This document shows, one piece after another, positions 1,748-29,772 of a stretch of DNA of 64,000 nucleotides (within the stretch, counting starts at the first letter, position 1; every line of letters starts with the position of its first letter). Source of the DNA: Hydrogenophilales bacterium 12-61-10 (GTDB lineage: Bacteria > Pseudomonadota > Gammaproteobacteria > Burkholderiales > Thiobacillaceae); contig NCCT01000020.1 of assembly GCA_002279795.1 (NCBI GenBank), forward strand, positions 49,308 to 113,307, written 5' to 3'. The translations under genes were made by a program, and so were the position numbers. The notes under the pieces are model-generated. The model was not told where the DNA came from, ran no database searches, and was given only the letters and a program-made list of their open reading frames with translations.

Positions 1748-1775
1748 TTGACACACTTTTATAAACAGATATATT
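1748..1775 (+). promoter_or_regulatory. Predicted sigma-70 promoter of the cco cluster
   Basis: A consensus -35 box TTGACA (1748-1753) is followed after 16 bases by TATATT (1770-1775), one mismatch from the -10 consensus. It lies about 70 bases upstream of the ccoN start codon in a clearly AT-rich stretch. No canonical FNR box (TTGAT-N4-ATCAA) was found beside it, which is unexpected for a cbb3 oxidase. Confidence 0.6.
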
Positions 1776-1780
1776 TATCT
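1767..1780. promoter_or_regulatory. Palindromic operator candidate over the ccoN -10 box
   Basis: AGATATATTTATCT has perfect 5-base arms (AGATA/TATCT) around a 4-base centre and covers the -10 hexamer of the predicted ccoN promoter. A nearly identical palindrome lies in the hemN promoter at 29719-29732: 12 of 14 positions match when the hemN strand is read as AGATATAAATATCT. Its position suggests repression. The regulator is unknown. Confidence 0.5.
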
Positions 1781-1845
1781 TCATATGTGAATGAACTCAA
1801 CTCATTTGCATGTACCAATCGAGTAATCAATCACGGGAGACGTGT

Positions 1846-3282
1846 ATGGAAGCGACAACCTACAACTACAAGGTCGTCCGCCAGTTCGCCATCATGACGG
1901 TGGTGTGGGGGATAGTTGGAATGCTGGTCGGGGTCATCCTGGCATCCTTGCTGATCTGGCCGGAATTGACCTACGGAATCGAATGGCTGTCGTATGGCCG
2001 CCTGCGTCCACTGCATACCAATGCGGTGATTTTTGCTTTTGGCGGATCGGGACTGTTTGCGGCGTCGTATTACTCCGTGCAGCGCACCTGCCAGGCGCGG
2101 CTGTGGGGCGGCAGTCTGGCCTCCTTCACCTTCTGGGGCTGGATGTCGGTCATCGTGCTGGCCGCCATCACGTTGCCGATGGGCTACACCAGCACCAAGG
2201 AATACGCCGAACTGGAATGGCCGATCGACATTCTGATCACGCTGGTGTGGGTAGCGTATGCGCTGGTGTTTTTCGGCACCATCGCCAAGCGCAAGACCAA
2301 GCACATTTATGTATCCAACTGGTTTTTCGGCGTCTATATCCTGACCATCGCAATCCTGCACATCGTCAACAATGCGGAACTGCCGATCGCCTTCTTCGGC
2401 GGCTCCTGGCTCAAGTCCTACTCCGCTTACGCCGGTGTGCAGGACGCCATGGTGCAGTGGTGGTATGGCCATAACGCGGTGGGCTTTTTCCTCACCACCG
2501 CCTTCCTCGGCATGATGTACTACTTCATTCCGAAGCAGGCCGGCCGCCCGATCTACTCCTATCGGCTTTCAGTTGTCCACTTCTGGTCGCTCAACTTCAT
2601 CTACATGTGGGCAGGTCCCCACCACCTGCAGTACACCGCGCTGCCCGACTGGGCGCAAAGCCTGGGCATGGTGTTTTCCCTGATGCTGCTGGCGCCGAGC
2701 TGGGGCGGCATGATGAACGGCATCATGACGCTGTCCGGCGCATGGCACAAACTGCGCACCGACCCGATCCTCAAGTTCCTCGTCACCGCGCTGTCGTTCT
2801 ACGGCATGTCGACCTTCGAAGGTCCGATGATGGCGATCAAGACGGTGAACGCATTGAGCCACTACACCGAATGGACGGTCGGCCACGTGCACTCCGGCGC
2901 GCTCGGCTGGGTGGCGATGATCACGATTGGATCCATGTACTACCTGATCCCGCGCCTGTTCGGCCGCGAGTCGATGTTCAGCACCAAACTCATCGAATGG
3001 CACTTCTGGCTCTCCACCATCGGCGTGGTGCTGTATATCGCCTCGATGTGGATAGCCGGGGTGGCGCAGGGGCTGATGTGGCGCGCATCGAACGCCGACG
3101 GCACGCTGACCTACAGCTTCGCCCAGGTGCTCAACACGATCTATCCGTTCTACGGCATTCGCCTGCTCGGCGGCACGCTGTTCCTCAGCGGCATGCTGAT
3201 GATGGCCTGGAACGTCTGGCAAACCACCCGGCAGGGTCGCGCGGTGAATGACGCCGCCATCCCGCAAGCCGTTCACGCCTAA
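1846..3282 (+). CDS. ccoN: Cytochrome c oxidase cbb3-type, subunit I
   Basis: Catalytic subunit of the cbb3 oxygen reductase in the inner membrane, with low-spin haem b, high-spin haem b3 and CuB. The ATG at 1846 gives 478 residues and has GGGAGA just upstream. An ATG at 1810 in frame would add 12 residues not typical of CcoN. Visible metal ligands are His57 (RPLHTN), His209 in the WWYGHNAV segment, His259-His260 (GPHHLQY) and His347/His349 (VGHVHSG). The chain contains about a dozen hydrophobic segments, and length fits the family. It heads the ccoNOQP operon. Confidence 0.97.
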
Positions 3283-28335: not shown

Positions 28336-29703
28336 TCAGGCAGTACGCGAGTAACGCGGCTGATCACGGGCGGCCTGCTTCAGATAGCGGTCGAAGCACA
28401 TGCCGATGTTGCGCAGGAACAGCCGGCCATTGGGGGTGACGCTGATTTTCTGCGCCTCGATCTGCACCAGCCCGTCGTCAGCCAGCGGGCGCAAGTCTGC
28501 CAGGGCATCGGCAAAGTAGTCGGCAAACACGATGCCCCATTCGCTGCCAAACGCGGTGAAATCGAGCTCCAGGTCGCACATCACGCGGGTGATGGCCTCG
28601 CGCTGGATCTGGTCGTCGCGGCTGAGCTTCAGGCCGCGCTCGACCGCCATGCCGGTGGCGGCGATGCGTTCCTGATAACGCTTGAGATTCTTTTCGTTCT
28701 GCATGTAGACGTCTGCGGTCTGGCTGATGCTGGACGCGCCAAACGCCAGGATGTCGCAGTCCTTGCGGGTGGTATAACCCTGAAAATTGCGCCACAGCGT
28801 CTTGTTCAGCTGCGCGCGCACCAGTTCGTCCTCGGGACGCGCAAAGTGGTCGAGGCCGATGTTGACGTAGCCTGCCGCGCCCAGCGCTTCGTTCACCGCC
28901 TGCTGCAGCCCCAGGCGCGTGGCGGAATCGGGCAGGTCGGCCTCCTTGATCAGGTTCTGGTGCTTTTTCAGCCACGGCACGTGGGCGTAGGCGAATACCG
29001 CAAGGCGGTCTGGAGCCCATTCCGTGACGCGTTCCAGGGTGCGGCTGAAACTCGCGACGGTCTGCTTCGGCAAGCCCACGATCAGGTCCAGGTTGATGCT
29101 GGAAAACCCCAGTTCGCGCGACCAGTCGAGCACCTGCCGGATCAGCGCCTCGGACTGGATGCGGTTGACCGCCTGCTGCACCGCGGGGTCCATGTCCTGC
29201 ACGCCAAACGACAGGCGGTTGAAGCCGGATTCGCGCAGTGCCACCAGATGCGCGCGCGTCAGTTCGCGCGGATCGACTTCGCAGCTGATTTCGGCATCGT
29301 CGGCCAGGGTGAAATGACTGCGCATCATCGCCATCAGGCGGCGGATGTCATCGGGGTTCAGGTAGGTGGGCGTGACGCCGCCCCAGTGCAACTGGCGCAC
29401 CAGGCGGCGGGTATCGACCCATTGCGCGGTGCGCGCCATTTCCTGATCGAGATACGCCAGGTACGGCTGGGTTTTGCTGTAGTCCTGGGTGGCCACCATG
29501 TTGCAGCCGCAGTAGTAGCAAAGCGAATCGCAAAACGGGATATGCGCATACAGCGACAAGCCGCGCTCCGGCGCCGGGACGGCGAGCGCTTCGGCCCAGT
29601 CCGCCTCGCCGAAACCCGTATGAAAGTACGGCGCGGTGGGATACGAGGTATAGCGTGGACCCGCCACGCTGTATTTCTGCAGCAACGCCAGCATGCTGTT
29701 CAT
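28336..29703 (-). CDS. hemN: Oxygen-independent coproporphyrinogen III oxidase
   Basis: A 455-residue radical-SAM enzyme converting coproporphyrinogen III to protoporphyrinogen IX without oxygen. The 4Fe-4S motif is Cys58-x3-Cys62-x2-Cys65 followed by Gly-Cys67 (HIPFCDSLCYYCGC), and the N-terminal YTSYPTAPYFH and GVQDMDPAVQQAVNRIQ blocks are HemN signatures. Full length for the family. It supplies haem under low oxygen, matching the cbb3 oxidase at the start of the window. Its promoter carries a palindrome very similar to that of ccoN. Confidence 0.95.
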   Translation of the reverse strand: MNSMLALLQKYSVAGPRYTSYPTAPYFHTGFGEADWAEALAVPAPERGLSLYAHIPFCDSLCYYCGCNMVATQDYSKTQPYLAYLDQEMARTAQWVDTRRLVRQLHWGGVTPTYLNPDDIRRLMAMMRSHFTLADDAEISCEVDPRELTRAHLVALRESGFNRLSFGVQDMDPAVQQAVNRIQSEALIRQVLDWSRELGFSSINLDLIVGLPKQTVASFSRTLERVTEWAPDRLAVFAYAHVPWLKKHQNLIKEADLPDSATRLGLQQAVNEALGAAGYVNIGLDHFARPEDELVRAQLNKTLWRNFQGYTTRKDCDILAFGASSISQTADVYMQNEKNLKRYQERIAATGMAVERGLKLSRDDQIQREAITRVMCDLELDFTAFGSEWGIVFADYFADALADLRPLADDGLVQIEAQKISVTPNGRLFLRNIGMCFDRYLKQAARDQPRYSRTA

Positions 29704-29718
29704 TTCGGCTCCATTAAA

Positions 29719-29732
29719 AGATATTTATATCT
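29719..29732. promoter_or_regulatory. Palindromic operator candidate at the hemN start region
   Basis: The core AGATATTTATATCT sits inside a longer palindrome AAAAGATAT-TT-ATATCTTTT (29716-29735) whose 9-base arms match perfectly. It lies a few bases downstream of the hemN -10 box, so a bound protein would cover the transcription start. On the hemN strand the core reads AGATATAAATATCT, matching the ccoN site in 12 of 14 positions. Confidence 0.55.
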
Positions 29733-29738
29733 TTTTAT

Positions 29739-29772
29739 TATATCGCGAGGCATAAAACCGGGACAAGCAAGC
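29739..29772 (-). promoter_or_regulatory. Predicted sigma-70 promoter of hemN
   Basis: On the minus strand TTGTCC is followed after 18 bases by a perfect TATAAT, then by the palindromic operator and the hemN ATG about 35 bases further on. The -35 box has four of six consensus bases. No FNR box was seen. Confidence 0.5.

Follow-up and report, generated by a model that had tools for sequence, protein, structure and literature searches.

The promoters of two low-oxygen genes, ccoN (ccoN1) and hemN, share a conserved 14-bp dyad in the 64-kb stretch of DNA analysed here (the window). Comparison with related genomes lends good support to the proposal, made in a preliminary description of this DNA, that the dyad is a shared repressor-type operator. 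We consider it probable that its owner is an Rrf2 repressor with the operator core RGAYA-N4-TRTCY, a CtaR-type protein whose gene is flanked by ctaB-like and SCO1-like genes. When both words were re-read from the window, the sequences, coordinates and 12-of-14 agreement given for them in the preliminary description all proved correct, and the shared-word observation is confirmed.

The ccoN1 gene (1846–3282, forward strand) encodes cbb3 oxidase subunit I (TIGR00780, 760.7 bits, cut-off 583.15) and likely starts at the ATG at 1846, which is preceded by GGGAG. Its promoter consists of a −35 hexamer TTGACA (1748–1753), kept in most of 43 genus promoters, a 16-bp spacer and a conserved −10 hexamer TATATT (1770–1775), the transcription start point being inferred. 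As had been claimed, the −10 hexamer falls inside the dyad AGATA-TATT-TATCT (1767–1780), an imperfect palindrome in which 5-base arms flank the centre TATT and which is the predicted operator of ccoN1. On the reverse strand, hemN (28336–29703), coding for oxygen-independent coproporphyrinogen III oxidase (TIGR00538, 586.9 bits, cut-off 324.95), is preceded by a perfect −10 hexamer TATAAT (29737–29742) and, beyond an 18-bp spacer, a −35-like TTGTCC (29761–29766). The predicted hemN operator, AGATA-TAAA-TATCT (29719–29732, reverse strand), begins 4 bp past TATAAT and is embedded in 9-base arms (29716–29735), in agreement with its earlier placement at the expected start point.

Two further features were seen in the ccoN1 leader. 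A 12-bp hairpin (1783–1813, forward strand), predicted by single-sequence folds, can form where the mRNA is expected to begin. By a loose test, 42 of 43 genus leaders fold into a stem of 6 or more pairs here, with varying loop lengths, and RNAalifold returned no consensus structure for the genus ccoN leaders, the mean z being only −1.07. Directly 5' of the ATG, CACG-GGAGA-CGTG (1832–1844) contains the ribosome site and might form a small hairpin; the exact 13-mer is found in 36 of the 43 leaders.

Within the window alone the word is only mildly surprising, since the two exact occurrences of RGAYANNNNTRTCY, found at these two places only and against 0.28 expected, were matched in number in 6 of 100 shuffles. 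Allowing up to 3 mismatches, AGATATAWWTATCT gave 6 rows compared with 1.28 expected, a place being counted on either strand. In the whole assembly (3,023,741 bases, 160 contigs) AGATATAWWTATCT matched without mismatch at ccoN and hemN only, as anticipated for an AT-rich word, and a reversed control pattern gave 0 matches when 1 mismatch was allowed but 7 rows when 2 were. Six further genome places carry the word with 2 mismatches; three of them (L003, L004, L006) lie within reading frames and one (L008) is ambiguous, while those upstream of an ompW-like gene (L005) and a 129-aa ORF (L007) resemble promoter sites. The decisive support for a shared site is its conservation.

Close relatives of this genome's genus bear the name Thiobacillus in public records, and the word is present with at most 1 mismatch in 39 of 56 genus genomes. 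The genus search yielded 29 new loci: in 20 the site precedes the same ccoN, in 3 it is at hemN, and in the other 6 it lies elsewhere, once 5' of an Rrf2 gene. Promoters were scored over the 10 positions of RGAYA-N4-TRTCY with a threshold of at least 9, and the nulls for the hemN, ccoN and Rrf2 promoter scores were single-base shuffles. The hemN set comprised 55 promoters, drawn from the genus genomes in which hemN is full or partial (G038, with a weak match only, was excluded), and the ccoN set 43 of 44, L181 having been dropped for a truncated start. The threshold was reached by 43/43 ccoN1 promoters and by 49/55 hemN promoters, compared with 1.7% of shuffled hemN promoters, so that the site is conserved in close relatives; hemN of the Rrf2-positive genomes G014, G045, G046 and G047 is without the dyad.

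The pattern of conservation is informative. At genus hemN promoters the dyad sits just past the −10 box and reads TRTGATAAAAAGAYA-N4-TATCY, with the arms kept and the 4-bp centre free. Genus ccoN promoters read TTGACA...GATATATTTATCY, with a conserved stretch of 12 bases that is longer than the −10 hexamer, and in two of them (L178 and L180) the centre has been rebuilt (CGATATTAATATCC) with the arms retained. Kept arms around a free or rebuilt centre are the behaviour to be expected of a protein-binding dyad. Because the hemN dyad lies outside the −10 and −35 elements, its conservation is not attributable to the −10 box; that at ccoN is owed partly to the −10 box.

The genome encodes three Rrf2 proteins. 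The candidate gene (at about G000:C31:24194-24658) lies upstream of the second cbb3 gene, ccoN2, in the order COX15/CtaA, UbiA-family (ctaB-like), Rrf2, SCO1, ccoN2. Its product passes PF02082 (87.6 bits, cut-off 30) and TIGR00738 (rrf2_super; 95.2, cut-off 73.3), fails the NCBIfam equivalog cut-offs for IscR (61.4 versus 207.55) and NsrR (33.8 versus 182) and is also far under those for RirA and CymR, the superfamily cut-off alone being passed. C92, C99, C105 and H108, which form a C-x6-C-x5-C-x2-H set, are invariant in 60/60 orthologs and presumably hold an Fe-S cluster; we take this Cys3-His set to be close to the IscR ligand set of three Cys and one His.

Among the matches listed, orthologs of at least 83% identity occur in 51 of the 56 genus genomes; the one missing from G022 is explained by a contig end, and G027, G044, G049 and G054 showed no close ortholog among the matches listed. 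Across 300 genomes of the order, 38 have an ortholog at E ≤1e-30, distributed over 14 of 134 genera, and among the loci listed the gene is linked to SCO1 and ccoN in many, not all. In the f15 loci L287, L289 and L290 the gene after Rrf2 is of CRP/FNR type (assigned by Pfam in L287), and in L287 and L289 it is followed in turn by ccoN. Some genus members also possess a second, 57–60% identical Rrf2 paralogue (G028:C6:310041-310490; G023:C15:810-1253), the G023 copy adjoining a nifH-like gene.

The dyad recurs at the promoter of the Rrf2 gene itself. Scores of at least 9 were obtained for 26/31 genus Rrf2 promoters (4.7% by shuffling) and for 12/18 in a second set, rows that share ancestry and are not independent. 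The genus promoter is a nearly fixed block, CTGGATATTCGGACARGATTGTTTTATATTG, which matches at 9 of 10 positions with an imperfect right arm, and this imperfect dyad sits inside a longer conserved block. In other genera the dyad was present at 13/28 Rrf2 promoters, compared with 3.4% by shuffling, or at 12/27 when L263 is left aside. L263 (G102:C29) belongs to a genome of another family and combines a Thiobacillus-like Rrf2 promoter block with an 88% identical protein; it is probably a stray Thiobacillus contig in that assembly. Sister genera have the Rrf2 dyad just after the −10 box (L266, L274 and L279 in g3, 3/4; L267 and L281 in g2, 2/2), f15 promoters have AGGAY-N6-RTCCT further upstream in 3/4, and the Rrf2 gene is preceded by a perfect AGATATATATATCT in G033 and by AAGATAGCGCAGTCTT in G038. 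The own-promoter dyad is thus not uniform, and its recurrence supports autoregulation of the Rrf2 gene as a prediction. A separate word, GATATTCRGAC, was seen at the −35 side of the Rrf2 promoters L199, L265, L273, L282 and L283, and it recurs in families f1, f29 and f34.

Both hemN and ccoN are classic FNR targets. FNR sites were sought as the strict box TTGA-N6-TCAA in the 160 bp upstream of hemN and in up to 130 bp upstream of ccoN1. The box was found at 0/55 hemN and 0/43 ccoN1 promoters of the genus, which extends the earlier remark that neither gene has one. Outside the genus, 22 Rrf2-positive genomes were chosen from 36; their hemN promoters carry the dyad in 9/22 (11 at a score of at least 8, each after a −10 hexamer) and the FNR box in 0/22. 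The Rrf2-negative set comprised the 20 genomes listed, with 242 more negatives beyond the list, and 14 of the 20 have hemN; among these listed negatives the dyad was present in 0/14 and TTGA-N6-TCAA in 12/14. For ccoN, 76 other loci with at least 100 bp upstream (L012-L088) showed an FNR-like word (9/10) in 53 and the dyad in 1, and the close relatives L009-L011 have the ccoN dyad in 3/3, L010 also having an FNR-like word (9/10) within 300 bp.

This contrast between dyad and FNR box may reflect ancestry, because the Rrf2-positive and Rrf2-negative genomes are different clades. The same fact suits an alternative in which the dyad is the operator of another regulator (for example a CRP/FNR paralogue whose specificity has changed, or a repressor of TetR or MarR type) and the Rrf2 link is one of shared ancestry. 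That the 5-4-5 spacing of the dyad equals the spacing of the FNR box, that several Rrf2-positive groups lack the hemN dyad (f1-g3 4/4, f15 4/4, f34 2/2) and that f15 has an FNR-type gene between the Rrf2 gene and ccoN (L287) are all consistent with it. We nevertheless judge it unlikely, given that several genera repeat the dyad in front of the Rrf2 gene itself and that this gene is linked to cco genes. In addition, placement over the −10 box or start point fits repression better than activation of the FNR type. The preliminary description had named two possible owners, an Rrf2-type repressor and an FNR-like protein; the former is favoured by its linkage to the second ccoN and by the same dyad at its own promoter in several genera, and the latter is less likely because of where the site is placed.

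It is far less probable that the genome's other two Rrf2 proteins bind the word, even though both are encoded here. One is IscR-like (L196) and scores marginally below the cut-off (207.2 versus 207.55); the other is NsrR-like (L197, 132.5 versus 182) and adjoins a flavohaemoglobin-like gene. IscR motifs differ from the dyad. The outer AAGAT...ATCTT loosely resembles NsrR half-sites, a likeness to which attention had been drawn earlier, but it is not supported by the published consensus, gATGyAT-N5-ATrCATc (PMC1274295), which differs in arms and spacing and thus has another geometry; the genome, moreover, has L197 as a separate NsrR-like gene. NsrR and IscR were set aside as owners of the site on consensus and profile scores. 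Equally improbable is that there is no operator and that AT-rich promoter sequence is conserved for RNA polymerase with a chance likeness of the words, as the −10 box within the ccoN1 word and the 6/100 shuffles with two exact dyads might suggest, since the hemN dyad lies outside the −10 and −35 elements with its arms conserved around a free centre and the 12-base ccoN stretch exceeds a hexamer.

Exact AAGAT-N6-ATCTT occurs at three places in this genome, namely at hemN, 5' of the OmpW-family gene and 5' of the 129-aa ORF (a weak match to pelota), and each comes immediately after TATAAT or CATAAT as a −10-like hexamer. The ompW-like gene and a divergent gene, aat-like by eye, have one intergenic gap in common, and the site is in it; a simple gene caller extended the aat frame across the site by means of a TTG start, a call judged wrong. 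A similar word is found upstream of the aat-like gene in G027 (L108). An exact dyad precedes ccoN2 in 4/4 f35 loci examined, and ccoN2 of this genome has no good dyad upstream. The expectation that matches would gather at respiration, haem and nitric-oxide genes was checked in part: ccoN, hemN and the ompW-like gene were recovered, and no nitric-oxide gene was seen.

In nine genus genomes exact AGAYANNNNTRTCT occurs at 43 places, compared with 17 for the reversed pattern. Several of these matches were dropped from the regulon, namely those in the 5' end of tatC-like genes (L245, L253, L259), one on a nifH-like gene's ribosome site and start codon (L239) and other matches within reading frames. 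Tandem words TGTAGACAG..CTGTCTACA, 37 bp apart, lie in the interval that separates a TetR-family gene from a divergent gene for a small protein (L244:1579-1629; G000:C112:10578-10628) and are also present in other genus members; they were likewise dropped and look like a separate TetR operator. A CMAS/cfa gene (L229) and a fatty-acid desaturase gene (L090), both in G002 and both assigned by Pfam, are weak, single-genome leads, as are, named by eye, an Aer-like PAS receptor and a CZB-domain gene (G055), a DUF72-like gene (G018) and a PPDK-like region (G026). Outside the genus an excess of AGAYANNNNTRTCT was not tied to the Rrf2 gene (24 versus 19 reversed in 10 positive genomes, 65 versus 44 in 18 negative genomes). 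With no genome-wide excess linked to the regulator outside the genus, the regulon is therefore either small or served by variable arms.

These results can be assembled into a mechanism. The operator core would be RGAYA-N4-TRTCY, with RGAY-N6-RTCY as a looser form, and a bound repressor would at ccoN1 cover the −10 box and at hemN the start point; because the site overlaps these elements, the bound protein would block RNA polymerase. The repressor would most likely be an Fe-S Rrf2 protein of the same kind as CtaR of Acidithiobacillus ferrooxidans, with ccoN1, hemN, the ompW-like gene, perhaps the 129-aa ORF and its own gene as putative targets. It would repress at high oxygen (or high iron and Fe-S supply) and release at low levels, although the signal, read from the ligand set and the targets, is a guess. 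In this clade, Rrf2 repression would have taken the place of activation by FNR at hemN and ccoN1. The broader evolutionary reading, for which we see the balance as even, is that an Fe-S Rrf2 repressor of CtaR type took over from FNR the control by oxygen (or by oxygen and iron) of the cbb3 oxidase and anaerobic haem synthesis in Thiobacillus and betaproteobacteria related to it. Activation from an upstream box would have given way to repression over the −10 box and start point; the regulon would be small, consisting of ccoN1, hemN, the ompW-like gene and the repressor gene itself, and the operator arms would drift between families.

CtaR is among the known systems closest to the candidate. Quatrini et al. 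(2009) named ctaR in A. ferrooxidans and mention clustering with cbb3 genes in T. denitrificans as data not shown (PMC2754497). CtaR (AFE_3141) resembles the candidate in being encoded by an Rrf2 gene within a cta cluster for haem A/O synthesis and oxidase biogenesis (PMC2754497), and here too COX15-CtaA and UbiA-family genes precede the Rrf2 gene. It differs in that it adjoins aa3 oxidase genes with ctaT, ctaU and ctaS, and the two are likened by gene context only. That CtaR is iron-responsive is a supposition of a 2017 paper (PMC5506826). No operator or target list for CtaR was found in the portions of the literature searched, and the sections consulted of PMC3753534, PMC4263372 and PMC4344238 hold nothing on this site.

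IscR shares with the candidate the Rrf2 family and a set of three Cys and one His, its cluster ligands, but the candidate has the spacing C-x6-C-x5-C and other gene neighbours, and IscR operators differ. NsrR is likewise an Rrf2 family repressor with Cys ligands, whose operator is unlike the dyad in that both words are without ATGyAT arms (PMC1274295). MppG of Rhodobacter sphaeroides is an Rrf2-family protein tied to low-oxygen physiology but acts on photopigment genes, and is likened to the candidate by its description only (PMC4263372). Control by FNR, ANR or DNR concerns the same target genes, hemN and ccoN, but the dyad is another site and is placed over the promoter core; Rodionov et al. 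(2005) place hemN under DNR in Burkholderia (PMC1274295). The regulator family is already known and the gene is named in one species; what appears to be newly predicted is the operator, its targets and the contrast between FNR and Rrf2. A clade with a start-point operator at hemN and ccoN, alongside an uncharacterised Rrf2 gene by an oxidase cluster, would offer a concrete example in which a repressor from a different family has displaced an activator. If this is true, CtaR, encountered in the literature searched as a gene name with a guess about iron, gains a predicted operator and a list of targets, and becomes open to direct tests in sulphur oxidisers that can be cultured.
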